DNA of 64,000 nucleotides from Thuidium tamariscinum (Eukaryota; Streptophyta; Bryopsida; Hypnales; Thuidiaceae), in NCBI GenBank assembly GCA_947034885.2, contig OX344749.2, positions 36,537,682 to 36,601,681 of the forward strand, in the 5' to 3' direction. A model generated the notes under the pieces. That model searched no databases. It saw only the letters and a program-made list of their open reading frames with translations, and was not told the DNA's origin. Of the stretch, positions 26,050 through 56,082 are shown in pieces (position 1 is the first letter of the stretch; each line of letters begins with the position of its first letter). The translations under genes and the position numbers were made by a program.

Positions 26050-26100
<51 letters not shown>

Positions 26101-33560: not shown

Positions 33561-33588
33561 GAGTGTCATGTTGAAGATTGTCTTGTCA

Positions 33589-34161: not shown

Positions 34162-35652
34162 GAAATAAACCAAAGAATCTCGATAATTAAAAAAAAAATT
34201 GAAGATGAAGCAAAGGATTCTTCTGAGACGTTTATTAGGGTTGATTTATATATCATCAATAAGTTGCACTACTGTATCTATTGTGATAAGCTTATGCATG
34301 TGCATCGTAATCACATTTTGAAACATTTAAGCGTAAGTTTGCATCAAAACAATATTATCGCTTATAACCTCTTGTTAGGGTTAGTTAAATATGGAGTTAA
34401 TTGGTTAGAAGGCGAGAGAAAACTACATTATGCAAAATGTAACGAAATATTTTCTAGAAAGGTGAAAGATGTTCTCCGTCATATTGAAAAGCATAGAGTT
34501 TTAATACTAGCTATAGTTTCAGGGGATAAAGGTGATTTTAACTAAAGGTATTTGTTAAAACATTTTACAAGATTTAAGATTTGGCAAGTAGATTTCAATT
34601 TTACAAATGCAAAATTGAACACATAAATTTTGAGTTATGACAAGGTTGTAGGCCCTATTACTTTTCAAAAAGATTCTCCAGCCAACACGTTTTTGGCAAA
34701 TCTTAAGAATGATGTTTTTTCAAAGCAAGAATTATCTTTTCTTACTAAGGTTGCTTTTTTATAGAAGTGATAGGAAATAAAGTTACATGATCAGAAGAGA
34801 AACAAAGTTCTAATATGAAGACGTTTGGAATGCGTTATGTAAGAGGTGACCTTAGTTGGTAAGTTGTTTTTTTGTTTTTGTTTTTTATATGAATTTATTT
34901 ATTTATTTTTTTTTTTTAAGGTTCTAATATTATTACATGGTGTATAAACAGGTACAAACATCAATTCAAGGATGTTTATAAACTATCTGAAGAGTTTGTA
35001 ACATTTATAGCCAAGCGTTTACAGTAGTTGTACCCTGAGGTTTATCAACACTTGGAGAGGATTGTAAAAGTTGAAGGGTTGTCAATTGGTACATCTACCA
35101 TTAGCAATTCACCTTTTACTTTTTTTGCATTAACAAGGGATTACAATTGTCGACCTCACCAAGATAAGGACGACTACGATCTTCAATTTATTTTGTGGTT
35201 AAAAAAAGGAAAATTTTCATGTTTGAATATTCGATATTTAAAATTTTGTTTATACATGTTTTTATAAGTTTATTAATCATAATTTTTTGTTATTTTAGAT
35301 GTTGAAGATCTAGAGAATGAAAATGTTCTTTTTGCAATCTTCAAGCAATTATGCTTTTACACTAAGGCATGAAGATGTGTTATGCTTTTATCCTCGTGAT
35401 ATTTTCCATTGTACTAAGGCTTTGAGGAAAAAAGGTTCCCTTGGGATAGCCTTTTTCGAAAAAGCATCTTTGTTTTACCAACTTAAACGACGTTTGGATT
35501 TAAAGAATGGTGAGGTGTTAACTACAGTTATACCGAAGTCTGAGAACACTCCACAAAAAGTAATTACAAAAACGAAAGATGTTTATTTTGACAGGAAGAC
35601 ATTATATATAGAAGCCTTCCAAGGAGGGAAAATGTCAATTTCAGACATATAA
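34162..35652 (+). pseudogene. Zinc-finger plus Fe(II)/2-oxoglutarate dioxygenase-like pseudogene, copy 1
   Basis: This is the best gene candidate. Upstream, 34,162-34,545 reads with a C-x2-C...H-x3-H pattern (YCIYCDK...HILKHL) and a second partial finger (HYAKCNEI...RHIEKH). Coding traces follow (YDKVVGPITFQKDS near 34,636; MKTFGMRYVRGDLS from 34,815). A perfect GTAAGT donor lies at 34,859 and a CAG acceptor at 34,951. The next exon has DVYKL, then NCRPHQDKDD and LWLKKGK. Histidine-x-aspartate fits the iron-binding facial triad. The last exon (from ~35,317) has EDVLCFYPRDIFHCT, supplying a distal histidine, then GSLGIAFFEK. The arginine usually expected after it to bind 2-oxoglutarate is not obvious. 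Several stops and frame changes lie between the parts, so it is broken. The fold call is fairly secure. The subfamily (TET/JBP-like, AlkB-like or other) is inference. Confidence 0.6.
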
Positions 35653-36015
35653 ACATTTAGGCAGTATCTTCGTTTAATTTTTTTCATTTTGGCTCTAGTG
35701 CTCATTTTCTCTTTGCTTAATTATTTGTGTTCAGCTTATTGGGCTTGGCTGTTCTTGTGTGCTCAAAGTTTCATGTTAGGTCCAAATTTGACAAGTTGTG
35801 GTTAAAATCGTTAGTCTCAGCTATCAAGAATATGGATAGCATTGTCTGGAATCTTAAGGGGCCTTACCCATGTTTCTTGTATTAGATGTCCCTGTTTGTT
35901 TTTTGTTTTCTTGTATTCTTCTCTCTTCAGTGTTTAGTCTTCTTAGCTTGGTTGTTTTATCCTTGGCTCTTCATTTTAATACAATGGTTTTGTCCATTTG
36001 TTTAAAAAAAAATTA
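35653..36015 (+). mobile_element. Possible LINE 3' tail
   Basis: A T-rich stretch ends CATTTTAATACAATGGTTTT and then GTCCATTTGTTTAAAAAAAAA. The tail near 51,290 (read on the minus strand) is built the same way. This form is typical of plant L1-type LINE 3' ends. It may instead be the 3' region of the pseudogene just upstream. No reverse transcriptase was seen. Confidence 0.35.
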
Positions 36016-36088
36016 TTTTAATACAATGGATTTTTATTAATTTAAAAAACAAAACAAAACAAAAACATATTTTATTACTTGCATTATA

Positions 36089-36108
36089 TATATATATATA
36101 TATATATT
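36089..36108. repeat. (TA)n microsatellite
   Basis: Ten or so TA units. Confidence 0.9.
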
Positions 36109-36109
36109 G

Positions 36110-38140
36110 AATAACAAATAGATAATCATTGCATTAAAAAATTAAACCTATTACAACTAAACTAAAAGTTAGATGAATGAATGGATTAGGGCAATGAATC
36201 CACCAATATTAAACAAATGAAATATTATCCTTATTCTAAATTCAAAATATGACAAAGGAAAATTTGATTTTGTTTTAGAAATAGGTATCAATTAAGTGTA
36301 AATATCTTCTAATAAAAACCTTAAAGTTCTTTTATTTAAATAAAAAAATTATAGATCTTTTAGATTAAACATTGGATTTATTATAAAGTAAAATAAGAAG
36401 TTATAGAATTAAGAATAATATAAGATGATTAAAAATACAATATTTTTATTTTTATTTTATTTTTTTAATAAATAAAGATGAAATTATCTTTTCAAAAGAT
36501 TTTTGTTTTTTTAGAATTAACATTCTTTTAGCGGTTTTTAAAATGAAAAGCCTTCAAAATCATTGATTATAAATGTTAAATCATTAGGAATGTTAAGTCA
36601 TTTAAATAAGCTCATTTGGTTATAATCTAGAATATTACAAGACAAAGCTAATATTTTGAAAGATCCATTGACAAAAATTATGAAGATTGCAAAAATTTAG
36701 TAATTTTACCCCTAAATTGAAATTATTATGAATTTTAAAAGGCAATAGTTGACTTAATTTGTAATCAACATTTAGAGTCTGTTAGCGCTTTTTATCCACC
36801 TTTGGTAAAAAAGAAAACACAACCAAGTTCTTTTTATTTTTTATGGTTTCTAGTCTATAGTTGTTGTAATGGTTGTCCATTGTGCTTTTCAAGCAATGAA
36901 TCTTTCTAACTCCTAAGTACACTCAAAGCAGGTGAAAACCTAATCAAACATACTTCAAAATGCAAAATATCACATGATTAACCTCTGCAATCGAGCTACT
37001 GTAGTTATTTTGCTAAAATTAGGTCAGACTAAATCTAATTATCCTATCTTGTAGAAGATTAATTCCTCTTTCCAAAACTATAAAATTCAATTTGATCGTA
37101 CATTCCTATCAAAAGTTATGAGCGGATGAAGTTGAACCACTAATCGATTCATCCAAACTTCATCCCCTAATTACTCCTAATCTACAATTCTAAATTTAGT
37201 ATTTATTTCGGTTTTGGGTTCTAATTATTAGTCTTATTCTAATTTACTCAATTTGTTCCAAAGTTTCAAGACTTATCTAGTTTTCATCCAAATTTACTAC
37301 TAAACTTCATCCACTTCTATCTTCCCTGTTTTAAATCGGATTTCTAAGTGTGATGTGTTTTTGAAAACCTTTAAGCTAATTCTACAGGTTTTTTAATCTA
37401 AAAATAAAAATAAAAATTGCATTGGTACTCTAAAGTGTACTTCTAGTTCGGCTACTTAGTCTAAATGATAAACTTTGAACATCCGAAATAATTAAGAAAA
37501 GTTAAATTCATACCTTGGAATTCACACCGTTAGAAAGGTTATTGTACACTCTTTTGAATTTTTCATCATTCGCCATCTTCTTCACATCTTTAATAGTTTT
37601 GCTTACGACTTGAAGGTGACTTTTTAATACAAATTTGAAGTTTAAACTTTTAACTACTTATTTTTCTTTCTATTCTACTTTTTTCTCTTCAACACTATTT
37701 TCCCTCTATTATTGTATTCAAATGGTTGATTTTGAAATAATAATTGACCTTTAAAGATCTAAAGTCAATTATTATTTTATCTTCTTTTTCTAATGGTCTA
37801 AACTCCTTCTCTAAGATTTCCTACCTAATCTTATCAACTTCTAATGACACCTTAACTTCCCAATAAATTCTTCATCTCCTTCACTTGTTCTTTGGGGTTA
37901 TTTGAACTCCTACTTGACAAAAGAGGTTCTAATTTGACTTTTATTTCTCTTCTATGTTATGACTCCCAATTAGTAATGGAAACGTTGTTAATTTGAAACT
38001 TTTCAACTTCCTATCTTCTAATTGTGACACTTCCTACTACTTTTGTGATGCTAATTTATTTTTAATTTTTCTTCAATTTATGTTATTTGATTAATCACTA
38101 CTATAATATGAAATTTAGTTTCTCCTTGACCTCCTATCTA
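36110..38140. other. AT-rich stretch, nothing recognised
   Basis: No gene was seen. TCAAAAGTTATGAGCGGATG near 37,108 carries the recurrent 12-mer found in the repeat families. Confidence 0.45.
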
Positions 38141-38204
38141 GTGTTTTGAATTTGTATGAGTTAAAACTCCAACCAATCATAAAATCAAATTATGCAACCA
38201 AGCA

Positions 38205-38490
38205 ACCAAGTCTCCCAAGTTCAATTGTAGTCAGTTCAACTCGCAGCAAGTTCAGTCATAGTAGTTCAACTCGCAGCAAATCAGTTCAAGCTTGCAAGCC
38301 AGGCAATACAGCTTGCGATCATGTTTATTTAATTGCAGTCATGTTGATGTCCTTGCCATATCCGATTGATACCCTACTACGATCGATTGATATCCGTCAA
38401 CTTGGGGGGTTCTCGAAAGGCCTCTTGATCGTTTGGAGGACTTGGGGAGCCTGAGCCAATAATTGTTTGAAGGCTCAGGCTACCAAACGT
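38205..38490 (+). other. G+C-richer patch with direct repeat and hairpin
   Basis: GTTCAACTCGCAGCAA occurs twice about 28 bp apart (near 38,236 and 38,264). AGCCTGAGCC at 38,448 and its exact complement GGCTCAGGCT at 38,472 form a 10-bp stem. The 102-codon frame across it has no recognisable motif and no ATG at its called start. Confidence 0.5.
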
Positions 38491-39190
38491 GTTTTTTAAC
38501 ACGAATTTCTAATTTTTGAAGGAATTTGGAATACCAAAAGTTGTTTTTCTTTCGGTAATTAATTGTACACTAAATTGGAATGCTAAATTGACACTTGGAG
38601 CACTATGTTTTGGGCTAAATTTTAAGAAAATTCTCAATATTTTGGGAACTAAACTTAAGAATTAATTGTAAAAAAGTCAAAATTTTGCCGTGATTTTGAA
38701 ATACACCTAAATTTTAAGACTGAAAGCTATAGTTTCGCCGTATTTTCTCTAATACCAAAATTTTAAACATAAAAAACTATAGCTTCGCCGTTTGTTTTAA
38801 GAATACTATAGAACTCTCCTAACTTCCAAACAAGTAAAGTTAAAGCTTCACTGAGATACAAGAAACAAAGAGAATACGGACAACCACAAGAAAAATGATT
38901 TGTTAGTAAACAATAAGCTACTAAATGTTAATGCTAAAATAACTTAAACGACGCTAGAAAGTTTCTTCAAGCGGTATCGCCAATCATAAAGAAAGGAGAC
39001 TTTAGGATTAGTACAAAGTTAGTTTAAAACATCTACAAAACGTCAACAAAATACAAGAACTCCACAAAACATCACCCAAGCTTCAAATAACCCACAAAAA
39101 GTGCTAAAAAAGATAGCTAAGCTTAAAGAGACCCCAAGTTCTTTAAGAGAGCTCCAAAAACAACAACAAAGGAGCTTAAAATGCTCAAAA
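38491..39190. other. AT-rich stretch, nothing recognised
   Basis: Recurrent phrases such as AGCTTCGCCGT near 38,780 and TTTGCCGTGATTTTG near 38,685 suggest a small decayed repeat. No gene was seen. Confidence 0.4.
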
Positions 39191-39477
39191 TATTAGTAAA
39201 AAATTCAGAATGAAAATCAACTGAAAACTATTGATCATTTTCTGTTGATTTGATCAAGTTGATCATCAGTAGAAATCAATACAAAAGTGTTGATCTTTTT
39301 GTTGTTTTGGACTTCTTTTTCTCAAAATTTTTTGAAATTTTTCATCTGCCCAAAACATCCGGGCAGCTGAATTTTTTTTCAAACCTTGCCCAAAATATCT
39401 AGGCAGTTGAAAAAAAATTCAAATCCATCCACCTGCAACCACCCCAAACATTGTCAATTACTGTCACTTACCAACCG

Positions 39478-39540
39478 TGAGGCTCAAACCCGAGACCTTA
39501 TACCTGCATGCACACAAGCCTAACTACTACACCACTCCTT
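39478..39540 (-). ncRNA. tRNA-like segment (possible SINE head)
   Basis: On the minus strand, GTGGTGTAGTAGTTAGGC resembles an A box and CGGGTTTGAGCCTC a B box, about 30 bp apart. Stem pairing is imperfect. A tRNA-like segment also lies beside the foldback in the 30.5-kb element. Confidence 0.45.
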
Positions 39541-39596
39541 ACCTTTCATGTAATACTTTGGAAGCACTAGTCTAGTTATACACTTACGGCTTATGT

Positions 39597-39953
39597 TTCA
39601 GCAGACTTCAAACGTCATTTCCACATAAAAAATCAATTTTTTTCTAAAAAACTTTAAACTAATAAAACTTGGGCAATCAAGTTAACTTTCATCTCCATAA
39701 ATCCGTTTCAGATTTTGAGCCTCCAATCAAAAGTTATGCACAAAACTCAGAGTGGATGTTTGAAAATGTCAAAAAATATTTCCTTTCAACCTCTCTTTAA
39801 ACTTTCTCCATAACTTTTGTTTGGAGGCTCAAAATCTAAAACGGATTTTTGGAGATGAAAATTAACTTGATTACCCAACTTTTATTAGTTCAAAGTTTTC
39901 TTAAAAAGGTTAAATTTCTATGTAATAATGACATCCAAAGTCTGTTGAGTTAA
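39597..39953. repeat. ~145-bp-arm foldback
   Basis: The left arm (CAGACTTCAAACG...ATCCGTTTCAGATTTTGAG) is mirrored by the right arm (CTCAAAATCTAAAACGGAT...AAAGTCTGTTG). The spacer between arms is about 50 bp. Confidence 0.85.
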
Positions 39954-40901
39954 AAAAAACATTGAATTTTAAATGATTAAGTTGAAAAAAAAACTTTCAT
40001 TGCATAGAATTTCAATTTTATTGTTTTAATTTGAATATTTCTCAAAATGCTAGTAAGATAATATTTTATACTTTTATGTAATTCAAATTTTGGGCTTATG
40101 GTAATAATATAGTTTAGAGTATGTAGTATGAAGAATTTTTGACCACTTAATTGAATCTACTTGCTATAATTATCCAAACTACTTATAACTCAAAAGAATA
40201 TATAGAACTCTTAAAAAAATAATTTAATTACAAATTGAATCAATTGGGTTGAAATTTTTGGTATATTGTATTTGAAGTGAATACAACTCTGGTAAGAATT
40301 TCACAAAAGATATATGCAACAAATATTGCACCAAAATTCCAAAAAGGACTTACTCTAAATTTGAAAATAGCTTCAAAGCATATTTAAATATTTTGAAGTT
40401 CATTAGGTAATCAACATCAATGTGCTAACCTTTCATTTTGCTACATTATCATAGCATTCCAAATTATTCTGAACTTATTGTTGATGAAACAAGTAGAATT
40501 TAAAAATTCCTAAAAAATATAAAAGATTTTAGAAAAAGATATAAACTTTCATTCCATGACATTCATTCCATTCCATTAGATTCCATCACAATCCTAAAGA
40601 TTTTTAAGAGATTTCTAAAAGATTTCTAAAAGATTCCTAAACAATTCTTAGAAGATATCTACAATATCTTTAAAAGATTCCTAGAATATCTTTAAAATAT
40701 TCCTAAAGATTCCTAAAAGAGTCAAAAACAACAAAATTTTGTTGATTTAGTCATTGCATTACTCCAATCAACCGAAAAGGACTGCTTGTTCCGTTGATGT
40801 TTACAAATAGTCCGTGCAGTGCTCCATTCAACAAAAAAAAACAAAAAAACAATTAAAATTAGTTGGTTTTCTATTGATCTGGACATGATTTTCTACTAGT
40901 G

Positions 40902-41630
40902 AAAAACAAGGAAATTTGGCAATGTGGCCTAAATGGCCAAAATTCAACTAAATGAACCCAAATGAAAACAAGGCGGTTCAAAATGAACCTAAAGGGTGAG
41001 AAGAGAGGGAAATGAGTGCCTTTATATACTCTTCTAAGTGCACTCACCCCCCCCTCTCTTCCTACATAGTAATCTCATCATTTAAGATTTTCATCCTAAT
41101 TTTCTAAATTTTTATTTTCTATGTTGGTCCTACACGATAACTTTTGGAGAAATACTCCAATTTGAAAATGGATTGCGCCAATGGCTTCAGAAGGCCATTT
41201 TTAGCCTAGAAGACCTCCTATTCCCTTTCCCTACCTCAAAAACCTCATAGATTATAGCAACGACTAGAATTAATCCAAGGTAAAAATTTCAAATGATGGA
41301 GTTTTTATTGTAATCTAAAAATAACTAGCCTAGACTCTTAAGTAGGTCCAAGAGAGTTGGAAAAGACCCTAAATTTGCTTCATTCCGATGTCATATGCTC
41401 TCAAAACACCGGTAAAGCTAGCGGTTGACCATTAATATCACCGATGTTGGAAGATCTTCTTAATTATGGCACCTCCCGCTATCGGAATGTTATGAAATTT
41501 GTCGGAGAGCTTTACGATGATATAAAAAATTACTGTAATTTTTAGTGAGATTTTGCCGCACTCATGATAATTTTCACAATTTTACCATGTCAGATTTAAG
41601 CGGATGACTGGTCGGGAAAAGATCTTAGGA
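40902..41630. other. AT-rich stretch, nothing recognised
   Basis: TTTTTAGTGAGATTTTGCCGC near 41,538 is echoed near 19,753 (TTTTAGTGAGATTTTACCAC), implying a small dispersed repeat. No gene was seen. Confidence 0.4.
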
Positions 41631-41667
41631 TGATCAGAAAAAATCAATACTTTTTGGGAAACCTCTC

Positions 41668-41875
41668 ATGGAGTTCCTCAAGCTATGTACAATCCCTAAT
41701 TGTACCTTGCACATGTGAAAAATGGAGTAAAAAATCCCACCACCTCCTTCAACTTCCAATGAACAAGGAATCTTCTACAATTGGAGGAACCTTGGTGCGA
41801 CGATTGCTCCGATGGACTCTTGGCACAACTCCCATTCTAAATCACCTTACTTATGCTGTAGATGCCCTTTGATGC
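41668..41875 (+). pseudogene. Unrecognised coding-like patch
   Basis: Two plus-strand frames are open over this G+C-richer patch. One reads IPPPPSTSNEQG, then FYNWRNLGATIAP, then WHNSHSKSPYL. The codon variety looks protein-like, but no family comes to mind. It could be a gene fragment or a decayed mobile-element frame. The 80-codon alternative frame is less convincing. Confidence 0.25.
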
Positions 41876-41899
41876 TCCAATTTTGAGTTTCTTCACCTG

Positions 41900-42470
41900 T
41901 AGGCTAATAATTGGGATTTCTACTATTTTGTCGATGGAATGAAGAAACTGAAACCTTTCTTTGGGAATCTAAATTAGGATTCTTACATAACTCCTTCAGA
42001 TTAAGCTAGTATTTTTGCATTTCATTGCACAATAGATGTAGAAAATTAGGGATTTTCTACTATTACAATTTTATATACAAAAGATGGATTTTTATCCTAT
42101 TTACATACGGGTTTTCATTGGATATGTAAAGAACTAGGTTTAAAGTGACTAGGGAGGGTATTGGTGTATACAACTTAGATTTAGGTCCAATACCTAATTC
42201 TAACTTTTTAACACCTAAAACTACATTCAAAAACTTACAAACAAACGAAAAATAATAGTTGAGTCCCAGGTGACAAAATTAGAACTCACAAGATCATTCA
42301 AATATTCAATTTCTATCATTTAAGAATACTTTCCTACTAATTATTTCCTACATTTATACTTACTTATGTATCATTAATTTTTTAGTCTAAGACTTAAAAA
42401 AGTATAAAGACACACATTCAAAGAATAAATAAAAATTCATTATAATCTTATTTTGAATAGGATATATTAT
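41900..42470. other. AT-rich stretch, nothing recognised
   Basis: No coding or structural signal was seen. Confidence 0.45.
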
Positions 42471-42472
42471 TT

Positions 42473-42622
42473 AGTATTGATGGTGTATGTATTAGTAATG
42501 GGGACATCTACCTTATAGAGAATAAAGTTTGTAGTACCTATTATTTAGTGTATAGTGATGTATGTATTAAAAATGAAAACACCTACATTATAAAGGATAA
42601 AGTCTACAACACCTACTACAAA
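42473..42622 (+). repeat. ~75-bp tandem duplication
   Basis: GATGTATGTATTA...ACACCTACATTATA in the second unit matches GGTGTATGTATTA...ACATCTACCTTATA in the first. Confidence 0.7.
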
Positions 42623-42917
42623 AATATTAAACTAATGTAACTTTTATATATATAAGCACTACATTAGCACCTAGTACAAAATAAATAAACTCATGTACCA
42701 TATATATAAAAGTCAATGTCATTAGCTATACAAAAGTATTGAAGTGAATAAATGATGTAGTAAGTTATATATAAGTAAGTCAATGAGTTTACTTCCGTTT
42801 GCCTTTTATTATTAACATTTTATACAAGTTGAATATAATTTTTATGTAATCATATCAGTTTAGTGGTCATATTTAAAAAAAATTGTAGTAAAAAATTATA
42901 CGACTAGTATCTAGTCA

Positions 42918-43851
42918 TTAACCCCTAAAGGACCAACATGCCTTTTTTGGCAACATAGCGATTTCGGGCAGGTACGTGTGGCTAGAGATTTTCATATTTT
43001 GGAACCAAACTTTAATAGAAGGTGTGGACGAGGAGTATCTTCAAAGCCCAATAATTTTCGTGACTTTTGACTACATGATTGAAAAGTTATCGCATAAAAC
43101 GTTGTTTGTTTCTCAACTCGGGCAGTTTGGGCAGATCAGAAAAAATCACTTTTTTTGGAAATAAAAATTTGAAATTGGTTTTATAGATTTATATGTACAT
43201 GGAAAGCTTTGAATCATTCCATTTGGATTAATAAGTCAAAAGTTATGAAGAATTTTAGTTTGCGGGTAGTTATGGATTCTCTTCTCTAAAATAAACTTTG
43301 AAGTCCTTTATTTTACTCAATTTTCAATATTTTTGAAAAAAATTTAAAACATTGGGTGTAGGTTGTTTATTACAACATTTGAACCTTTGGGATTGGCATT
43401 TTTCAATTCAATAAATAAATTTTTACCATTTTAGTATTTTGAATCATTCTCTACTTCTTTCTACTTACTATTTTTTTTGTACATGTTGTACAATTCCAAA
43501 TGATATGAAAATTTTCAAGCATGTAGCCAACTTGAATTGGAGAATGAATCCAAAGAGTTGCAACCATTTTGGACATTTTTTCATACAAATGTGGCCTTCT
43601 GAAGTGCAGCTGCCCGGATTTTCGCAGTGAAAAAAAAATGATTTTTGTAACTTCAAACACTAATATCTTGCAATCTACATGGTGAAAATTTCTGAAATTT
43701 TTTCTACATCTTTACAAACTATTTCACTAAAAGATCCTACGGTTACATATGTCAAAAAATGTTTTTAAAAAAAAAATTTGGTAGCTATCCTAAAAATGGC
43801 AGTTTTGGAGCAGTTTTTGTTAAAACATAGTGAAGGAACTTTAGGGGTTAA
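42918..43851 (+). mobile_element. TTAA-flanked DNA element, copy D
   Basis: A 926-bp element (42,922-43,847) lies between TTAA tetranucleotides. It starts CCCCTAAAGGACCAACATGC and ends GGAACTTTAGGGG. The interior carries GGGCAG near both ends, TCAAAAGTTATGAAG near 43,237, and a minus-strand 62-codon frame at 43,468-43,656 shared with copies C and G. Copy E begins 50 bp downstream. Confidence 0.85.
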
Positions 43852-43900
43852 AATAAATCATGTATAAATTTTTTTATATGGTTTCTATATGAAATTCATA

Positions 43901-44707
43901 CTAATCTCCAAACACCTAAATTTTGTTTTTTGGTAATATAGCAACTTTGGGTAGCTATTAAAACATGAACATTTTATTGTCGCCAAAAAGGAAAACTTCT
44001 TTGAAACTTATTTATTTAAGAAAAAAAATCGAAATTGGTTTGTTTATTTAACTAAAAAGATTTAAATCATTTGATTTTGATTAATGAGTCAAAAGTTATG
44101 AGGAGTTTTAGTTTAGAATAGTTTATTACTAGTTATAAAATCCCTATACTATAATAAAAGTTAGAAATCTTTTATTTAATTCAATTTTTAATATTATTTG
44201 AAAAATAAACCCAATTAATGTAGATTTTTAATTACAACATTTTCAATTCTATAAATAAATTGCTTACAATCAAATACTTTAACTTTTTTTCTATTTTTTT
44301 CTACTTATGATTTTTTTTGTATATGTTGTACAATTGTAAATGATTTGAAATTATTTCAAGAAGTAGCCAACATGTCTTTAAGAATGAATCCAAAGAGTAT
44401 CAACCAATTTGAACCTTTTTCTATACAAATATGACCTTATAAAGTGTAGTTGCCTGGATTTTTGCACTATTTGCAATGGTAAAAAAAGAATCTTTACAAC
44501 TTTAAGCACTAATATCTAACAATCTATACGGTGGGAAATTTTGGAATTTTCTTTATATCTTTTCAAATTTCAACCTAGCTTACTACAAGATCCTATGGTT
44601 AAATAAGTAAGAAAATATTTTTTTTGCTAAATTTTGGTACATATATTAGAAATGAAAGTTTTAGAGTTGTTTTGGTGAAAATATAGTCAAAATCATTTAG
44701 GGATTAA
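43901..44707 (+). mobile_element. TTAA-type element, older copy E
   Basis: The element matches D throughout but with many changes. Its left end has decayed to CTAATCTCCAAACACC and its right end to CATTTAGGGA-TTAA. GAGTCAAAAGTTATGAGGAG lies near 44,087. The shared minus frame is interrupted here. Confidence 0.7.
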
Positions 44708-45010
44708 AGTCCACATTGATTAAATTGTGACAAAAGGAGAAGAAGTATGAAAAATCCCTTGTAGTTTATAGAATAAAATTTGAAAAGTCATGGAGTAAAC
44801 AAGAGTTTTGGATATTCCAAAAAATGTATAAGTTGCCTAAAAAGCAGCTTATGACTAGAAGTCATGGGCACCAAAGTGGTTGATTTTAAATAGACAATGC
44901 ACCTATAGTGTGCCATTTTTTGCCAAGTCACTTATGGCTGGTGTGTGTATTTTACCTTTTGTGCAATGAAATACGATTCAATTTGTGTCAAAAAGGAAAA
45001 AAATAAAAAT
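44708..45010 (+). mobile_element. Possible LINE or retroposon 3' tail
   Basis: The stretch ends TTTTGTGCAATGAAATACGA and then TTTGTGTCAAAAAGG with an A-rich tail. The end near 60,440 (ACAATGAAATTCCATTTCAC) is closely similar. Retroposed 3' ends fit, but no coding domain was seen. Confidence 0.35.
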
Positions 45011-47704
45011 AAAATGCAGTAAGCAACTGAAAACAATCTAATGGAGTGCAACCAATTACTAAAAAGAAGGCCCCTAAAGTCAATTCAATGGCTAAAGCAA
45101 ATCCCTCCTAAAAGATTCTTGTAATTATTACAACCAACTTTAGTAGGATTATACTTCAAAAACAACAAATGAATCACCAAATAATCACATTTATGGACAT
45201 TGAAATATATAACTAATATTCCAAGTGAATAAGAATTTCTCCTAAACACAAAACTAACTTAAGTTTATTATTATTCATATTTTGCTAGTCTTCAACTAGC
45301 TTAAAGAAATAAAACCATTGGGTTCATTTCAACCATAAATTTTTTGTACTTTTAATGTAATCCACATCAATTTGTTTTTCAAACTCATGTTTTAATTTGT
45401 TTTACTAAAGGAAGGATCATGTTTCATGGAGTCAAAGACAAATATCCAAATTGCTTTGAAGAATTGAATGGTTACATTCTAAATATTTCAAACTTTTAAT
45501 ATACATCCACATATTTGACTCTCCTATTTTGTTCCTTCAAAATAAGACAAGTCAAAAATGATGAAAATAATTCTGACCCACATATAGTTGTAGTCTATAA
45601 ATTTTAAAAAGTCATATTCCACTAATGTCGTACTTATACTAACTAAGAAACAAATCCACTAAGTACATTTCTACCCTAGAGACTTCTTATACCTACATTA
45701 ATTTGTAACCAAGATTAATTTGTTTATAAAATTATTTTTTAATTTGTTGTACTAAAAACCATCATGAGTATTATTTGTAGCATTTAATTTGTTCAATACG
45801 ATTATACACAAGGTTCAATGAATATGGTAAATAAAAGAATTTTTTGTTTTTTCCAAATTTTGAAAGTTTTTCATTATAGTTTATTCATTAATGGTTAAAC
45901 TTCCTTTGTGTTTATTTTTTATTTTTGGTATTGGTGTTCTAATTTGAAAAGATATTGTATATATTCATATGTTTAACCCTGAGATTTTGCAAATTGTTTG
46001 TATTTATAATTTCTAGCCTTTAAAGTAAAAAAAATCCCTTTATTTTCAATAGTATTTCTAATTCATCTTTAGATATTAAATAAAATGTTGAATATGTCAA
46101 TGAATCTACTGAGCAACATTTATCAATATTCTAATTCACAAAATATTATGAGAGAAGAATATTTAAGATTAGCAACAAATATTGTTTTGATTAAACTTAT
46201 GGGCATATTTATAAATAATATTAAATTCCATCTAATCACTTTTAGCAATATTTAATAATTGCTAATTTTTCTTATTAACTTTTGAACAATTGCTAATATT
46301 ACATCATAGATATAATTTATTGTTAAATGTCTTTTCTGTTTATATGAAATTTTTTTTAAAATCTAGTATAATTCCGTAAAAATATTATTAACCTTGGTAT
46401 ATAATTTAAATGGCTTTTCAAATCATTATTCTTACATACTCTATTAATGTATTCTTATTTTTGTAGTTTTTTCAATGTTAAATTAAATTTTATGTAATCT
46501 TTCATTTTCTAGGAATAATTATATATATATATATATATATAATTTATTTATTTATGACTACATTCATCTTTATTTTTGTTTTTCTAAGAAAAAAATTTAG
46601 GAAAAAAATTTAGGGGAATATTAATCTCTATAATTTTGATAATTTTATTCATGATTTAAAGGCAATTCATAATTTTGTTGTGATTTTCAGTAAAAAAAAA
46701 TTTCTCAAATTTGGATACCGTAATGTGTGTTTCACAAAAGTTATAATTATCTTTTTAAATAATAAAAATCAAATTAATTCAATTACATTTCATTAAAATA
46801 CTATTATCCTTTTTACTTACTATTTTTCTATGCCTTAACACCTTTTACAACAACTTAAGAACTTTCTGAAGTCCTCTTTTCTATCATTGTCATTGTGTAT
46901 TATTCTTCTATTTAATGTAGTAAAAAATTTAATTCCTATGTTTCTTTTAAATATTAATTAATAATACACATCCAAAATAATTTGCTACTACGAAAGTAAA
47001 AAATAATGAATAATGACCTCTAGTGGTCAAGCACTGTTACCAACAATAAGAAAATTAGATTAGGAACCAATAAGAATATTAGAATTAAATGGGATTTCTA
47101 TAGGTCATTATTTGAATTATATTTTATAATCAAAGACCTTTAACACCCTTAAAGAAATTTATTTGAGACAAAAAAGCAATGCTTAAATTTTTTTTTAAGC
47201 TACCTTTATTCATAGATATATGTTTAAGTTATATTACTTTGTACGCATTTTTATAAATATCCATTTACTTTTCAACCATGAGCTGCTTTATATTACTTTT
47301 TATTTACCTTACCGAAAGCATGTACAAATTTATGTCTATTAGGGAAATATCTTAGTAGAATCATTATAGGGATTAGTACCACAAGTCTTATAAAAGTTCA
47401 AAATCAAGTTAAATGATGTTACAATAGACCTCCAATGGCATTTCTTACATACAATGCATAGTATCTGTAGTTAAGACAATTTTATTTTTTAGTTAAGTTT
47501 TGTTCTTTTGAGTGTGAAATGGGTTAAATGTTCAAAGTTTTGAGTAATCAATTGTGAATGTGGTGATATTTGAAGTTAAAATGTGAAAGGACTTTTTGGC
47601 TTAAGCGGTTGTGAATTTTTATGGGTTTTTACCAAGAGATTGGAAAGGGTGTTTGAGGAAGGATCATGATAAATAGCCTCTCTTCTCTCATTCTTGTCTT
47701 CTTT
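45011..47704. other. Long AT-rich stretch with one (TA)n tract
   Basis: About eleven TA units lie at 46,519-46,540. No gene, repeat boundary or RNA gene was recognised. Confidence 0.5.
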
Positions 47705-48633
47705 TTAACCCCTAAAGGACCAAACTGCGTTTTTTGGCAACATAGCGATTTTGGGCAGCTCACTACGGATGGAGTTTTTATTTTTTTTCATTGAAATTTT
47801 CACACAACATGTGCTCAAGGAGTAGCTATAAGGCCCAACAATTTTCATAACTTTTGACTACATGGTCAAAAAGTTATTGCATGATATGTAGTTTTCATTG
47901 GTCGGCGGGTAGCCCAAAAATTTCTTATAAAAACTTTTTTTTCAAAATTTGAAATTTGAAATTGATTTTTTAGATGTACATATATGCAGAAAGCTTTGAA
48001 TCACTCCATTTTGATTTATGAGACAAAAGTTATAAAGAGATTTAGTTTGCGGGTAGTTATGGATTCTCTACTCTAAAATAAACTTTGGAAGCCTTTATTT
48101 TCCTCAATTTTAAATATTTTTGAAAAAAAATTAAAAATTTGGATGTTGATTGTTTGTCACAACATTACAACTATTGGGATTTTCATTTTTCATTTTTATA
48201 AATAAATTGTTCACAATTTATTTCAAACATTTTCTACTTCTTCCTACTTACTATTTTTTTCCTCTATGTTGTACAATTCCAAATGATTTGAAATTTTTTG
48301 ACCATATAGCCAACTTGAATTGTAAAATGAATTCAAAGAGTAACCACCATTTTGGACATTTTTTCATAGAAATGTGACCTTGTGAAGTGCAGCTGCCCGC
48401 TTTTTTGCAGGGACAAAAAAAGGGTTTTTGTCAATTCAAATGCTAATATCTTGCAATCTATATGGTGAAAAATTCTGAAATTTTTTCCACATCTTTTCAC
48501 ACAAGTTTACTATAAGATCCTACGGTTACATGTGTCTAAACATGTTTTTTTTCAAAAATTTGGTGCTTGAAGTAGACATGGCAGTTTTGGTGTGTTTTTG
48601 GTGAAGACATAGTCTCTGACCTTTAGGGGTTAA
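47705..48633 (+). mobile_element. TTAA-flanked DNA element, copy F
   Basis: A 921-bp element (47,709-48,629) lies between TTAA tetranucleotides. It starts CCCCTAAAGGACCAAACTGC and ends GACCTTTAGGGG. Its left third (CACTACGGATGGAGTTTTTA) is closer to copy A than to C, D and G, so at least two sequence subtypes exist. A minus frame across 48,250-48,412 is open, as in copies A, C, D and G. Confidence 0.85.
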
Positions 48634-51285
48634 TTTCTCTTGTATTCATGACATGAGGTTGCGTTTTTTGTGTGTTGTATTAATTTATAGATTCATAATT
48701 GTCATTTTTTTTAAGTTGTCTTATTCACTTAAGTGATAGTGCTTATTGCTTAAAACTTGAAATTTAATTTTGATGATACAGTGCCTTGAGCATTTTATAA
48801 AGGAGAATTTCTTCAAGAAAATGTGATTGTACTTCAAGTAGATTTTGTCTATCCGTTATATTTTATCTTTTAAGAGAATTTTTGTATAAATGCTTAAAGC
48901 AAGATTTGAAGAAAAGAGGAGTAAAATATTAAGTTAGTGTTTGACTTAATAATTCCAATGATTGGAAATTATTTGTAAACAAGGGATTGGTTTGCAATTG
49001 AATGATCCAGAGATTGGATTTTATTTTGAAATTTAATGATTAATTAGTGATTGGTAATCATTTTTATTTTCGGGATTGGCAAATCTTTGTATCACAAATG
49101 GACATGTATGTTTGAAACAAAGTTAAGAATTGAGATTGGTTTTGACTTGAAACATGAGTTTACATTTCTAGTGATTAGAAATCATTGAACAATTATAAAT
49201 AATTGATGTACATTCTCAATATTGAATGATTATTCATATGTTAAATAAATGGTATTCCAATCGAAGACATGAGTATATGATTGAATGTTTGAATGTGTAT
49301 TTAAATTCTTTCATCAGAATTTATATGTAGTTGTATAAAATTTAGTAAGTATAATTTAGAATTAGTATTACAATTAAAAAAAGAAAAGCTCCATGGTGAT
49401 GCAAATGGAGAAAGCTTAAAGCTAAAGATGGAAGGATACATAGTCGAATGAAAATCGAAGCCTTGAAAAGGAAAGAATTTGAAATTCTTTAAATAATTTA
49501 ACAAAGCATATTTTACATCCCTCAAGGAAAATCTTCGAATTGCTTTAAGCATATGTGTGTTAATGTGTAAATGTGTTCACTTAAAGCGATGTCCTTGGTT
49601 GTTTTCAATCCCTAAAAAGGATAGGTGTAACATTTACTTAAAGTAATTGAGTCATTAATGCTTAAAGCGACTTAAATGTTGAAATTATATTTGCGAAAAA
49701 CAATCAATGAATTCTCTGTTCAACCGAATTTTCAAAGTTTGAATATATATTGTGAGATCCAAATTGCAAACAAATATATTTGTAACATATTTCAGTGAAT
49801 TCAAAGTATGAGATTTGTGGATGCAGGTTCCTTAGTTTATATCCTAGATTTTCATTTATTTTAAGATATGACCGAGATGGACTTAGTGGTTAGAAATTTT
49901 TATTTATAATTGGACAGAAAATAGAAAGAGAATTCCTTTCCCATTCCTAAATAAAAGATGAATTATACCTAATACCCTAATACATTAAGGTTAATGACAT
50001 AATTTACCTACAAAGTGACATTAGCTAACTAAAACACTAAGCTAATTTGAGTTTTTCCACAAACGAACCTATTCGGAATTGCTTTGATTTTCTCATAGAA
50101 AAATTGAACTACAATGTCTTTTTATGAATATGAATTATTATAGAATAGACAAATCATGACATATTCACAAACTTTTGACATAAATATTGTCCTTTTGCAA
50201 TCTCTCCATTTTGTTCTTTAAATATTTTAGTAAAATAACTATTGCATGTTTCCTTATTTAAACAAGGCATTTGATTTCTAAAAATCCTCTAAATATTATT
50301 AAAGGAGATACTCAAAATGAAAAGAAGTGAAATCCCTTGTCTACTTCCAAGAAAGTAGAATCAACTAACAATTCAAAAGATACACAAATAAACATATATG
50401 TTTCTTTGGTCCATGCAGTCTACATTCATTGTGATTTAAAAGGAAGATTTATAAAATTATAACAACTTGTAAGATATTTTTGTAACAATCTTGTCACTTT
50501 TATGATACTTCAAATATATTTATAGATAATATAACATGTATAGAATGTTCTATTAATGATTCTACATCTTATCCAATACTTTGTATAATAATCCATTGAA
50601 AAAAGAAAATGAATTTATAATATAGCTATATATTTTATTCATTTTTTTCCAAATCAATTATCACAAATATTGAAAAAAGATGTATATTAAATTAATAGAC
50701 TTTTATAGCATGAATAGAAGTTTACATACATCTTACAAATATATTTTTGAAGTCCATTAATTAAACAACATATATAATTGTCATATTATTACAAATGTAT
50801 AAACTTCCTTCAAACATAATTGAAGTCTATTCAACTAGTATATACACACTTCCTATGATACTTCAAATAAATAGATTCAAAAGTGTTGAATGAACATCTC
50901 ATGAATTGATGAAATTTATAAAAAAATTTGAATGACAATTTGAAGTATAAATGGAAAAAATATATAAATGAGATTAAGAAACCCCCCAAAAGTTTATGTT
51001 TATAATACTAGTATCTACTTTATTTTGTATGACAATGGAACTCTTTGTTAATATTAGGACATACTTAGAGACACACTAAAAGTAGATGTACCTTGGAACC
51101 TAAAAAAACTTTAGAATCCTTATTGATGACATTTCAACAAATATTTAATCTAGTAGGGAATTAATTTTTAAATTTTTAAATAAAAAAATAAAAATTTGTT
51201 TTTTGAAAAGAAACAACATAAGACCATAATTTAAACTGTTACGACATTGTTTCAACAAGGTTGTAAAACATCAATTCAATATATT
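48634..51285. other. AT-rich stretch with a loose short repeat
   Basis: Between 48,950 and 49,190 the word GATTGG recurs every 40-70 bp (GGGATTGGTTTG, GAGATTGGATTTT, GGGATTGGCAAA). GCTTAAAGC-type words recur between 48,893 and 49,670. No gene was seen. Confidence 0.4.
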
Positions 51286-51425
51286 TTATTTTATTTTATT
51301 TATTTTTTGGACAAGAGGGACCAGTGCATTCCATTAAAAAGAGAAAATAAAAACACAAAGCTAGGGTACAAGGCTAGCAAGGAAACCAGCCAATGCATGT
51401 CTTGAGCAAGGAAAAAGTTCAATTA
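51285..51425 (-). mobile_element. Possible LINE 3' tail (minus strand)
   Basis: On the minus strand the sequence reads CTAGCTTTGTGTTTTTATTT, then TTTTTAATGGAATGCACTGG, and ends in TCTTGTCCAAAAAATAAAT. It resembles the tail at 35.9-36.0 kb. No coding domain was seen. Confidence 0.4.
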
Positions 51426-51429
51426 AAAT

Positions 51430-52350
51430 TCTTGTGATATTAACCTATAAAAGTCCATTGTCCATTGGGGACAATTTTGAGTTTGGACAAGTCCTGATGA
51501 CCGTAATTTTTAGTGAAACTTTTTTAAGTTTTCTCATAAGATAGGAAAACTAATTAGCAATAGATTTAGCAGTTTTTTCTGTTTAAAAAATTTTGAACTT
51601 ATTCACTATATTTAAAATAAGTAATAAGTGGATTTCAATTTCTTTTACCAAAAGCTAAAAATCCAATGTACATCTCGTTTTTCAAGTAGTAGCTATTCAA
51701 GAATATAAATATTCTTGTATCAACGATTGAAATAAGGCTACATAATTTAAAAGTGTAAATCAACAATTTTTAAATTTTTAAACATTATACTTCTATATAG
51801 CAAAAAGAATGGATTCAAATTCACACATATGTATACCACATAATAAAAAATTTGATTTTGGGGTGCAATAGAAAACCCACAATGAAGGCAAAAAGCACAA
51901 TTGTATAATTTAAACTACCTTGTAAGGAAATATGGAAATTCAAGAGCAAGTAAATTTTTCAAACAAATATAGGATGTGTGAAGGAATATTAAAATTAAGG
52001 GCCTAAGGAATATCAATTCCTTCCATTGTCAACAAAGTGATTGAATACAAAAAGGTAAAGTGTTAGGGGCTTGAAATGGATATTTCCAAAATGGTAGAAT
52101 TATCATAGAAGAAAATAAAATTTTAACAATCTATATTGATAGATTTTTTTCAAATAAAAAATGTGAAGGTTATTATCATCTATTAGATTTCATCTACAAA
52201 TATGGAAGATTTGTGGAATGCAGTCTAGAAAAACATGTTAGAGATATGGTCATGTGTGGCTGGCAACTGGATACACTTACGAACAATATATCTATGTAAG
52301 TATTGTTATGTACATAATCATATCTTTTAAAGTAATTCTAAAAGAAATAT
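51430..52350. other. AT-rich stretch, nothing recognised
   Basis: No coding or structural signal was seen. Confidence 0.45.
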
Positions 52351-52354
52351 TTAC

Positions 52355-53340
52355 AATTGCCAACTTTGGCACCCTCCCAAAGGCTTTCAAAATTTGGTTT
52401 CTTTCTATAAATTTTTTTTTGTGAAGGGACCTTTATATTGATAACATGTATTCTAAATTTCAAATTCAAATGAATTATGAAAAAAAAAATCCAAAATCTC
52501 TCAACATATATAGTTGTAAGGAAGAGATTTTAAACCTTTAGTATAGTGTTATTAATTTTGTGGAGCAAAATTTAACATAGTTGTACAATGACGCTAGTAT
52601 ATGAGCATAAATATGCGAGTATGTGAGCTTCTAATATGTATATAAGTAGATATACTACCACCTTTGAAGGTGTTTATAGTAAAAATACCTATAATATAAG
52701 TACCTATAGTATAAATATACTCTTACTATAGAAGGTTTATATAGTTAAGCACCTAAATTATAGGTGCATCATCTTTGAGGCTTATAAGCTTACACTTCTG
52801 TACTCATATACTAGCAACTATGTATAGATGTAAAAACTCATCCTTACAACTACATTTGTTGGGGGATTTTAGATAACTATCTTTTTTTGTATAAATCTTT
52901 TGAACTTGTAATTTGGAACATACATTATTCTCATAGATATGATCTTATACCAAAAGCTTTATATTAAATAGACAAATTTTCAATCCTTGGAAGGGTGTCT
53001 AAATTAGCAATAGTAAAATTCTCCTTACAATTATATATGTTGGGAGATTTTGTATATCTTTTTTTTGGTAATTTTTTTGAAATTGAAATATAGAACACAC
53101 ATTATCAATATAAAGATGACTTTCAAAAAAAAATTCATTATAATAAACCAATTTTTCAACCTTAGGAGGGTGTCCAAGTTGGCAATTATGAAAATTTTCT
53201 CAAAACTACACATGTCTAGAGATTTCAATTATCTTTTCTTAAATTGACATTTTGAACTTGAAATTTTTCAATACATATTAGTAACATAGAGTTTATTTCA
53301 TGCAAAAAAAGTCCAAATTTTTTGAAGCTTTAGATGGTTA
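52355..53340. repeat. ~172-bp repeat units, one inverted, three direct
   Basis: One inverted unit occupies about 52,355-52,525. It runs from TTGCCAACTTTGGCACCCTC to CTCAACATATATAGTTGTAA. It is followed by a ~315-bp spacer and then three head-to-tail units starting near 52,841, 53,016 and 53,190. Each direct unit has CTCCTTACAACTATATATGT at its start and CCTTGGGAGGGTGTCNAA at its end. The spacer is bounded by GCTAGTATATGAG (52,593) and its exact complement (52,803). Open frames at 53,031-53,247 are by-products. Confidence 0.75.
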
Positions 53341-53779
53341 CTAAATATGGGCTAGAGTAAAATAGGCCACTATTCATTATCAATGATAAATATTGAATGA
53401 ACCTACAATTTTAAATATCCAAATTTCTAAATCTTTGAAAATTGATAAATTAAAAAAAAATAGAGTACAATATTTCTTTCAATCTTGAACAAAGTAGTAT
53501 ATAATATTTTTAACAAAGACCAAAACTTCTTTTTTCCTTTTTTGAACAAATATTTCAACTCAATTATTCTATAAATACATTTTAAATTTAAAGTTTGTTG
53601 TGAAAAATTTCCACAAATGATAGTCAATGTCATCTCCACTTTTTGAAAATGACCCTAAACCTAGAACTAATTGCTAATATGTTGTAAAATGTTATGATAT
53701 TAAACTTCATTAAATTTTTAGCACACAATCTCTAAGAAAAAATGCTTTAAGGTTTTAAGATGAAATTAAAAATAATGCA

Positions 53780-54560
53780 TTTTGGGTTGTCTTGGATAAA
53801 CACACCCTAATCAATAGATTTGGATGGTTTAGGATAGGAAATACTCTTTGGCCTTTAGGCCTATATACTTTATAGTTACTTTGTTTATAAACCCTTGAAT
53901 GCTAAAAGCCTTTTTTGGGCTTTTAGAAATGTCCCCTAAATTATTCAAACAAAAATCAACTTTATAATAAGTTGTCCCAAAAAAAATTAAAAGATGTGAA
54001 ATGTAGCATAAAAAATTCATATAAGACATTAGAGATCATTTGGGAAAAGGACAATAGTATCACTTATGGATTAAAAAATAATGTTTGATCATGAGGGTGC
54101 TAAAATTTGAAATAGATGTAAGTCTTTCAATTTATTTTTTCTAAGTTAAACATGAAAATTTGGTGACCTAAAAAAGAAAAAAGGTAAAAGATCTAAAATG
54201 CCTAACCTCCAATCAACTTATAGCTTCTAAGAATCAGTTCTACAGTTTTTTAAATGAATTTCTTATCTGTGTTTTTCTCCAAGATCTAATGTATTTGAGG
54301 CTTACTTCCACACTAGGGAAAGTGAAGATTGGAATGGATTCCCTTGCCCAAAATTTGCAAAAGAAAAACTGTAGTCGATTGTTTCCAAAATCAGTTCTTC
54401 AATGCTTAAAGTAGACTCTTAAAAAATAAATTCTCAAAATACAACTATTCAAAATATCAACTTGATTAGATTTTATTTACCTTCAAAGTTTTGCAAACAC
54501 TTGATTTTAGTGCATTGGACATTTAGGGTTTAATATACATATGTAAGAGTAATTTTATAT
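53780..54560 (+). repeat. Third unit of the dispersed repeat at 1-1,130
   Basis: Shared landmarks with the first kilobase, in order, are TTAGAGATCATTTGGGA, AATGTTTGATCATGAGGGTG, CTAACCTCCAATCAACTTAT, AAAGTGAAGATTGGAATGGA and ACATTTAGGGTTTAATA. Boundaries are approximate. Confidence 0.6.
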
Positions 54561-54635
54561 AACTCATATATTATCAAAAAAATGTTCACATTTATACACA
54601 ATCACAAAGAACAAACAACAACATAAAACATCTAT

Positions 54636-54639
<4 letters not shown>

Positions 54640-54666
<27 letters not shown>
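54640..54666. repeat. (TA)n microsatellite
   Basis: About thirteen TA units immediately upstream of the second dioxygenase-like relic. Confidence 0.9.
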
Positions 54667-54671
<5 letters not shown>

Positions 54672-54675
54672 TAGG

Positions 54676-56082
54676 GAGTTGTTTACACTGGATGTATACA
54701 AGCTCTTACAATCTAAGTTTTCATCTTGGATACAATTGCTAGAAAATCTATATCATACAACAATTCCCCCAAAATATGGAAGAATAGGAGATATACCTTT
54801 TTTACATTTAGGTGTTATGAAGAATTATTAGATATCCCCTCATACAGATAAAAATGACACACATATAGGATTCATCATGTGGTTCACAAAAGGCAAGTTA
54901 CATATATTATAAGTTGAATTGTTTGATATATTTTTAATTTATACATTAGATTTATTTTGCATTTAACTGTACCAAATAAAATTTATTGATCCCTTCTCTA
55001 TTGCAAAGAATAAATTTCAATTAATTTGATGGCATTCATAATAAGATACATATACCTTAAGGAAACAATGATTTTTTTTACAAATTAAAGATTAGATTTT
55101 GTGACTTTAAAACTTCTTAACTAAAATTTTTGCAATACAAATTCTGTGGCTCAAATTGTATGGTAGAGAATCCAAATAACAGTAAATGGAAAAACATATA
55201 TGAAACTAGCTTAATTTTTTCTAAAAAAAATCTTACATTCACATAAGTAGATATAAAATAGCAAGAGAATTTAAACTATGCATATCTTTAAGGTGGAATT
55301 AACATACACTAACGACTAAAGTATATTGTTTTGCAAAGTTGAAAGAAATGTAGTATTTATCTTTGAGAAAAAAGTTGTTCTTGAAAAGCATATTGCCTAT
55401 ATAAATGAACAAAATGAAAGTTGTATATTTAAATACAAAAATAAACATGTTGGAATTTTATTTTTTTAAATACATTATTCAATTTGATCCCTATGTTTAA
55501 GTCTTCTCAAATAATTTTAAAAAAAAATTCATTCCCCTCTTCTAGGAAGAAATAATTATATTTTTACAAAGCATATTAGTTTTTAAATCCCCCGGTAAAG
55601 GTTGTAGACATGATCACAAAACTTTAGACTTTAGATACCTAAAAGAATATGATTTTAGCTTCAAAAACATACAATGGCCAATAGGGCTTTAGAGGTTAGA
55701 AGTATTTGAACAATCAAATTAAAGAAATGGGCCTACAACTTCAACATTTTAAAATCTACACCAAAGTCAAGATGTAGATTTATTTATAGTTGTTTTTAAG
55801 CAGTGCTTTGGATTGGCGTATCATTGAACCCTAATTATTTGATGTAGTTTAATTTTCAGAATTTTCTTATGCGATATCAAAAAAAGTGGAGAATTTTGCC
55901 TACTAGACTATAGGTACTACATCCAACCTAAAGCTGGATCATTGTTCTTATTAGATTCAAAATATATAAAGCATGGAACAATAGCCAATAGTGGATTTTT
56001 TCAAATGGGTGTTGCCCTTCTAACTAAAAAATCAACATTGAATTCCTTTGAAAGAATCATAGAAGAAATAGATGTGATTTGA
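54676..56082 (+). pseudogene. Fe(II)/2-oxoglutarate dioxygenase-like pseudogene, copy 2
   Basis: The first exon reads REL-F-TLDVYKLLQSKFSSWI, then IPFLHLGVMKNY, one in-frame TAG at 54,829, then ISPHTDKNDTHIGF and IMWFTKGK. It aligns with copy 1: DVYKL, an aromatic strand, Pro-His-x-Asp-Lys-x-Asp, F-I-x-W, then KGK. After a ~1-kb A+T-rich gap that fits an intron, an acceptor-like CTATAG near 55,913 opens a second exon. It reads YYIQPKAGSLFLLDSKYI, then KHGTIANSG, then GVALLTKKSTL, with a stop at 56,080. The histidine in KHGT matches the distal histidine of copy 1. The gap contains the end of a TTAA-type element. No zinc-finger part was found upstream. At least one stop makes it a pseudogene. 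Confidence 0.6.
55450..55697 (-). mobile_element. Relic TTAA-type end inside the putative intron
   Basis: AAAACATACAATGGCCAATAG then GGCTTTAGAGGTTAG is a decayed form of the second-subfamily end seen at 7,942 and 58,145. Only this end is recognisable. Confidence 0.4.

Follow-up and report, generated by a model that had tools for sequence, protein, structure and literature searches.

TET enzymes, which in animals oxidise methylated DNA, and CMD1 act on 5-methylcytosine (5mC), and plant transposons are silenced by methylation. The VANDAL elements of Arabidopsis are Mutator-like, and the VANC that they encode is not a dioxygenase. As transposon-encoded proteins that counter plant silencing, the VANC proteins resemble what is proposed here for an enzyme of a CACTA element (PMC10398659, PMC5735166). 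Fungal DNA transposons, EnSpm/CACTA elements among them, carry TET-like genes (Kojima 2025, PMC12730594), and an anti-silencing role has been proposed there, so far untested. CcTET of Coprinopsis, which has TET activity and an HxD motif, is kin of a fungal transposon type (PMC11040006, PMC12730594); its host is a fungus, whereas the host here is a land plant. CMD1 of Chlamydomonas is described as an algal enzyme using vitamin C and, unlike the gene reported here, is not mentioned as transposon-borne in the available text (PMC7854593). The present analysis concerns a 64-kb window (C1:36537682-36601681, the whole stretch of DNA that was analysed; G+C 28.4%), which holds two broken TET-like genes, copy 1 and copy 2, and the CACTA elements of the same genome that carry an intact relative of copy 2.

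Both window copies are almost certainly dead members of an expanded family of TET-like Fe(II) dioxygenases, judging by their motifs and profile matches. An intact gene of the copy 2 clade is carried by a CACTA (EnSpm) transposon, beside a TNP2 transposase. The two copies are laid out as follows (window positions).

33995-35684, plus strand: copy 1, a broken TET-like gene, 80% identical in DNA to two copies on C8 across the full span.
35154-35174, plus strand: PHQDKDD of copy 1, with the Fe(II) ligands His and Asp, then an Asp three residues on (sequence, alignment).
35407-35409, plus strand: distal Fe(II)-ligand His of copy 1, in FHCT (sequence, alignment).
51809-56134, plus strand: copy 2, a broken TET-like gene, whole extent.
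51809-52272, plus strand: first exon relic of copy 2, coding for the C2H2 finger and the N-terminal part (45% and 43% to the intact relative by tblastn, E 1.2e-25).
54590-54891, plus strand: second exon relic of copy 2, with the PHTDKND metal motif, split by a TA repeat (tblastn, E 2.7e-24).
55008-55312, no strand assigned: repeat within the enlarged second intron of copy 2, matched wholly or partly at 68-77% in at least 22 other places.
55858-56134, plus strand: third exon relic of copy 2 (tblastn 68% at 55879-56133, E 5.5e-33; DNA match; alignment).

Read in the plus frames, copy 1 gives in order DVYKL, PHQDKDD, FILW..KKGK, HCT and GIA, and copy 2 gives DVYKL, PHTDKND, FIMW..KGK, HGT and GVA; an earlier reading made from the letters of the window alone (the sequence-only reading) had named these motifs, and all were found in the order it gave. 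The stop-free pieces of each copy, joined by X, were aligned locally with a score of 93, against a mean of 27.7 and a maximum of 55 in 2000 shuffles. The placing of copy 1 on the plus strand by the sequence-only reading held; copy 2 is longer than that reading had supposed and begins at 51809 with an exon encoding a zinc finger. Copy 1 combines a zinc-finger-like N-terminal part with a dioxygenase domain and probably had two short introns, because its exon blocks are common to it and the copy-1-type locus L041 (exon 1 in three blocks of 47-71%, exon 2 at 77%; tblastn). Both copies are broken and diverged, as had been proposed: copy 1 has an in-frame TAG (35025-35027) and frame changes, and copy 2 has frame changes and a TAG (54829-54831) directly before the metal motif, whose His lies at 54841-54843. 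The second exon of copy 2 matched the intact CACTA-borne gene at 73% over 15 amino acids (aa; 54590-54634) and 61% over 72 aa (54676-54891; tblastn), and its third exon keeps the distal His (55972-55974) and has Gln (56002-56004) at the position of the arginine that holds 2-oxoglutarate (2OG). The gaps between the exons of copy 2 exceed the introns of the intact relative (191 and 224 bases) and hold repeats.

The DNA of copy 2 matches four places in the genome with equal or near-equal scores. For three of these, the 10-kb stretches are 99.95-99.96% identical over 7.5-7.7 kb and stop within 2 bases of one another, at the common point ...CTAGTAGTG. Searched through the genome with up to two mismatches, the CACTA end was found 773 times and its reversed pattern 236 times, and all four places lie within elements with paired ends.

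C7:22091962-22112019: CACTA element, 20,058 bp.
C2:32095670-32115727: CACTA element, 20,058 bp.
C10:19705590-19725647: CACTA element, 20,058 bp.
C2:12081166-12101223: CACTA element, 20,058 bp.

Each of the four has at both ends the 15-bp terminal inverted repeat CACTACTAGAATAAG, which begins CACTA, and is flanked by a perfect 3-bp target duplication, different in every case (taa, tac, gat, gaa). In Pfam scans, the C7 element matched Transposase_21 (PF02992; 6.6e-26 and 9.9e-31), DUF4218 (PF13960; 8.3e-32), Transpos_assoc (0.006) and, below its cut-off, DUF4216 (2.7e-6); a 398-aa TNP2 piece is open in all four elements. These ends, target duplications and transposase identify the units as CACTA elements, and the near identity of the copies, which extends to the left parts of two of them (99.87% over 9.4 kb), indicates that they moved recently. 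The TET-like gene lies 2.1 kb from the right end and has three exons, open in all four elements, which together encode a C2H2 finger and a TET-like domain in a protein of 362 aa. A relic at locus L055 shares this layout: 1.8 kb 3′ of its gene stands a perfect CACTA end. The element also contains a 508-aa open frame opposite to TNP2, without a Pfam match, which is a possible third gene.

L065 1-1524 and L067 6608-7099, minus strand: open frame of this possible third gene.

The sequence-only reading had guessed at mobility, which is borne out for the copy 2 clade, but not for copy 1, by the four full elements and their target duplications. The parallel that it drew with fungi does not extend to the host, a land plant, and the transposon link is therefore less expected. 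The likeness to the fungal TET EnSpm elements comprises a TET-like gene within a complete element, inverted ends, 3-bp duplications, a transposase and many copies (PMC12730594). The differences are the land-plant host, the 20-kb length, a TNP2 accompanied by DUF4218 and DUF4216, Gln at the place of the Arg of 2OG users, and an N-terminal C2H2 finger, zinc being unmentioned in the main text of PMC12730594. That main text treats fungi only and names neither moss, gymnosperm nor Viridiplantae; a review from 2026 on how plant transposons capture genes names neither TET nor dioxygenase in its main text. Searches of the open literature found no TET-bearing DNA transposon of plants, though TET genes of lower plants may have been mentioned before.

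Assignment to the TET families was made by profile search, which the sequence-only reading had suggested as a check on its dioxygenase proposal, and the outcome upholds that proposal. The joined pieces of copy 1 matched PF20515 (Tet-like; E 4.7e-5) and PF12851 (Tet_JBP; E 0.0012), and those of copy 2 matched the same families (E 0.014 and 0.022); all four matches score below the curated cut-offs, and no other family of the 24,736 Pfam models was listed for either copy. Among eight unjoined pieces, one matched PF20515 (E 0.14), two matched unrelated families by chance and five matched nothing. The protein of the intact CACTA gene scored above the cut-off for PF20515 (31.1 bits against 27, E 2.9e-7) and below it for PF12851 (30.5 bits against 34.9, E 2.4e-7), and also matched zf-met (2.7e-7). 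Built from three open members (the CACTA gene, L076 and L077), profile A1 found CMD1 in the PDB at 1.3e-7, in an alignment that takes in the metal motif and reaches the distal His. Of the 12 chains listed with E no higher than 1, CMD1 was the sole dioxygenase; the other 11 were NleB, a designed repeat protein (7e-4) and zinc-finger or related proteins of RNA binding and ribosome assembly. Profiles of the copy 2 and copy 1 clades matched each other at 2.9e-9; a third clade, of PF20515 type, matched A1 at 7e-4 (probability 26%) and the copy 1 clade at 0.083, and its profile found no solved chain. Copy 1 itself matched the CACTA gene only at 34968-35252 (26%, E 6e-8), its nearer kin being on C8, C3, C5 and C6. 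An IMG/VR match to copy 1 (L001) consisted of a short common stretch in a long, repetitive, phage-structural-like frame and was taken as chance, and no viral or prokaryote relative was confirmed among 189, 5 and 150 candidate stretches.

Intact homologues, on whose existence the sequence-only reading depended, are present in the genome, and the family is multicopy, as it had held. The assembly comprises 363 Mb in 19 contigs, eleven of which hold 362.9 Mb. PF20515 gave 50 matches, 49 of them over the cut-off (one by counting neighbours in frame) and the best at 4e-48, and none in 14 control genomes. With the CACTA gene protein 112 matches were obtained at E up to 0.001, and with a copy-1-type exon 33. 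Merged at 5 kb, the 195 matches form about 117 TET-like loci (63, 23 and 35 by query, overlapping); these counts are lower bounds, and the weakest matches may be chance. Locus L040 (C8:12546001-12555999) carries two genes of copy 1 type arranged as an inverted pair, whose 2,106-bp arms are 99.95% identical, and further TET-like inverted pairs were seen at C3:27126-27128 kb, C2:7423-7425 kb, C8:23443 kb and C6:27395-27396 kb; such pairs could yield hairpin RNA.

Substitution rates (dN, nonsynonymous; dS, synonymous) indicate that the copy 2 clade gene lineage was under past purifying selection while diverging, at dN/dS of about 0.3. The CACTA gene gave 0.30 with L056 (dN 0.18, dS 0.60; 358 codons), 0.32 with L057 (352 codons, in a row that mixes exons from the two arms of an inverted pair) and 0.31 with exon 3 of L055 (97 codons). 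Lower ratios came from the CACTA gene with exons 2 and 3 of window copy 2 (0.17; 155 codons, dS 1.27) and from copy 1 with L041 (0.06; 82 codons, dS 1.5) and L040 (0.24; 83 codons), the high dS values being near saturation and the relic ratios a blend of constrained and free evolution.

The His and Asp of HxD are present in 11 of 11 aligned rows, and HxE of the PE fungal type was not seen in them. The distal His is found in nine, so that the full HxD...H triad is present in both window copies, the CACTA gene, L056, L076, L077, L010, L017 and L020; L040 has Tyr at this place, and L041 is without that exon. In both window copies, the CACTA gene, L056, L076 and L077, an Asp follows three residues past the metal Asp; in CMD1, Asp350 binds N4 of methylcytosine (PMC7854593). 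Arg289 of NgTet1 and Arg1896 of TET2 hold 2OG (PMC7854593). At this position PF20515-type loci L010, L017 and L020 have Arg and the copy 1 clade has Ser, whereas the copy 2 clade, unlike 2OG users, has Gln (intact gene, L056, L076, L077, window copy 2, L055, L057 and L060), which the profile alignment sets over the Arg of the PF20515 type. CMD1, the best solved relative, shares with the CACTA gene the triad, the methylcytosine-binding Asp and the want of a basic residue at the 2OG-Arg place, and it uses vitamin C (PMC7854593); because this TET homologue is without the Arg, the residue was not treated as defining for TET.

Taken as a whole, the best explanation is probably that the window copies are dead TET-like genes, that the copy 2 clade is CACTA-borne, and that the enzyme has a proposed anti-silencing function. 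For the last part, prospects are evenly balanced: a zinc-finger-guided enzyme would modify 5mC on its own transposon and so counter CG and CHG silencing. The C2H2 finger would bring the TET-like enzyme to element DNA, the enzyme would oxidise or otherwise modify 5mC on the CACTA element, and the methylation would be lost or no longer read, after which TNP2 would be expressed. The carriage of an intact gene by a CACTA element suggests that a plant transposon may use a TET-like enzyme to escape silencing. In a bolder version, which is a long shot, the copy 2 clade enzyme would be CMD1-like, with ascorbate or another co-substrate, and the land-plant transposon would mark its own DNA with a hypermodified cytosine unread by the silencing machinery; the kept methylcytosine-binding Asp, together with the conserved Gln in place of the 2OG-binding Arg, is the reason for considering it.

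Several results weigh against the best explanation. The 2OG-binding Arg is replaced in both window clades; the CACTA gene protein alone reached CMD1 in the PDB at just 0.36, and L076 alone matched the TET profiles at 0.022 and 0.081. No TNP2 piece was found in the window by tblastn, and no close CACTA end pair flanks copy 2; its own CACTA carriage therefore follows by kinship only, and copy 2 is classed as a gene relic of a CACTA-borne lineage and not filed as an element. Short matches to other element parts lie near it (e.g. 56930-57116, 57926-58158 and 50615-50746, 66-74%), but these may be dispersed repeats, since further such matches fall at window positions of 7-10 kb. The copy-1-type loci L040-L043 gave no significant TNP2 match, nor did any transposase appear when 10 pieces of L040-L042 were scanned against Pfam. 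TNP2 relatives (67-81% identity) lie 3.7-7.9 kb from CACTA ends in four places, compared with 8.2 kb in the full elements, so that related elements may be without the TET-like gene. Finally, proximity to TNP2 was scored with 150 matches of 627 candidates, a list that does not include the full elements' own split TNP2 exons, and none of 60 copy 2 clade loci (no enrichment) and none of 23 copy 1 clade loci lay within 12 kb, a negative result for both window clades.

Among the alternatives, an ordinary host gene family survives best, although it is somewhat doubtful: the many TET-like genes, copy 1 included, would be normal genes and pseudogenes, and the CACTA case a side branch. The missing transposase in the scanned flanks of copy-1-type genes fits this, as do open frames of 303-548 aa at some TET-like loci, two of which were read (L076, L077). 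Against it, about two-thirds of the 112 CACTA-protein matches and 29 of the 33 copy-1-type matches hold stops, and several PF20515-type families are dispersed with 91-98% DNA identity reaching past the gene. Loci of this type lie near TNP2 more often than at random placement (2 of 35 within 12 kb, P 0.046; 5 of 35 within 50 kb, P 0.011), which is not taken as proof of carriage. Two of them, L020 (C1:47819162) and L024 (C2:12059994), are 97.9% alike over 3.5 kb, and each is followed, about 9 kb downstream and on its own strand, by a TNP2 match; they are maybe a second TET-bearing CACTA family. At C3:3473789 and C3:3479345, a TNP2 match and a TET-like match are separated by 5 kb; the latter belongs to a 470-aa frame interrupted by one stop, and 11 kb further along comes a relic of PF20515 type.

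It is rather improbable that the enzyme acts on another substrate, such as thymine, RNA or protein. Direct knowledge extends to the fold family and metal triad, and the TET-like enzyme of Naegleria also acts on thymine (PMC12344493), but both copies, the CACTA gene, L076 and L077 retain the Asp whose counterpart in CMD1 binds N4 of methylcytosine. Passenger capture, in which a CACTA lineage took up a host or foreign TET-like gene with no role in its life cycle, is unlikely. The shorter distances of other TNP2 relatives from CACTA ends, as if without the gene, would agree with it, and the full copies, given their near identity, represent one recent burst; a passenger, however, would not be expected to show dN/dS of about 0.3 between lineages 0.1-0.6 synonymous changes per site apart, nor an intact finger and triad, and relic L055 keeps the element layout. 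Fungal contamination, or recent transfer from a fungus, is very improbable: TET-bearing EnSpm elements are known from rusts and Agaricus (PMC12730594), but here the loci belong to contigs of chromosome scale, three of the five contig ends read in this assembly carry plant telomere repeats, and the copy 2 clade profile finds the algal CMD1 and no other solved dioxygenase.

The CACTA-borne gene is a concrete candidate for such an enzyme, intact, multicopy and transposon-borne in a land plant. It makes testable a plant transposon-host conflict over 5mC by way of an oxidase, as proposed for fungi, and likewise whether reported oxidised cytosines in plants might come from such enzymes.

The host itself is, on its genomic features together (telomeres, CAG/CTG depletion and a radial-spoke gene), a seedless land plant, probably a moss, which the eleven large contigs and the assembly size would suit. 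A rust fungus, which PF20515 and the low G+C had suggested as host, is rejected on these same features. TTTAGGG repeats stand at three of five contig ends read, one of the others being masked and one without repeats. CpG stands at 0.35 of the expected frequency, and CAG/CTG at 0.43 of that expected from a Markov model, a deficit compatible with loss of methylated CG and CHG; CCG/CGG shows no depletion (1.15) once its CpG is allowed for. Radial-spoke protein 3 matched four places (best E 1.1e-14), so that flagellate sperm are likely. Hypnales genomes of 262-385 Mb are described (PMC13120521).

The remaining features of the window are listed below; scans with Rfam (gathering threshold) and for tRNA genes found nothing in the 64 kb.

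29503-30487 and 32812-33772, no strand assigned: segments with homology to sequence lying upstream of further copy-1-type genes (blastn to L040, L042 and L043).
36780-38250, plus strand: repeat whose 5′ edge is sharp (TGTTAGCG...), immediately 3′ of copy 1, its 3′ end not fixed.
25782-26575, 42918-44577, 47705-48540 and 58801-59640: dispersed repeat of about 0.8 kb, one orientation.
2539-3360 and 17210-17583: the same repeat, inverted.

The segments at 29503-30487 and 32812-33772 are mostly inverted relative to L040, L042 and L043, and may be remains of the same unit as the copy-1-type genes. Besides the instance at copy 1, 4 of 38 other scored copies of the sharp-edged repeat (C9:17321195, C9:5904250, C2:30446688 and C6:16430851) stand no more than 3 kb 3′ of a TET-like relic and in its orientation, against a mean of 0.07 and a maximum of 2 in 5000 trials of random placement. 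At L030 the repeat cuts into a TET gene. It may be a long terminal repeat landing in TET-like genes, or else belong to a second element that bears a TET gene. The repeat family of about 0.8 kb has at least six copies in the window, in both orientations. Near the end of C3 lie large open frames of 481 aa (L041 7292-9394) and 219 aa (L046) without Pfam matches, and the last 400 bases of C3 resemble, by eye, the same repeat as these frames.

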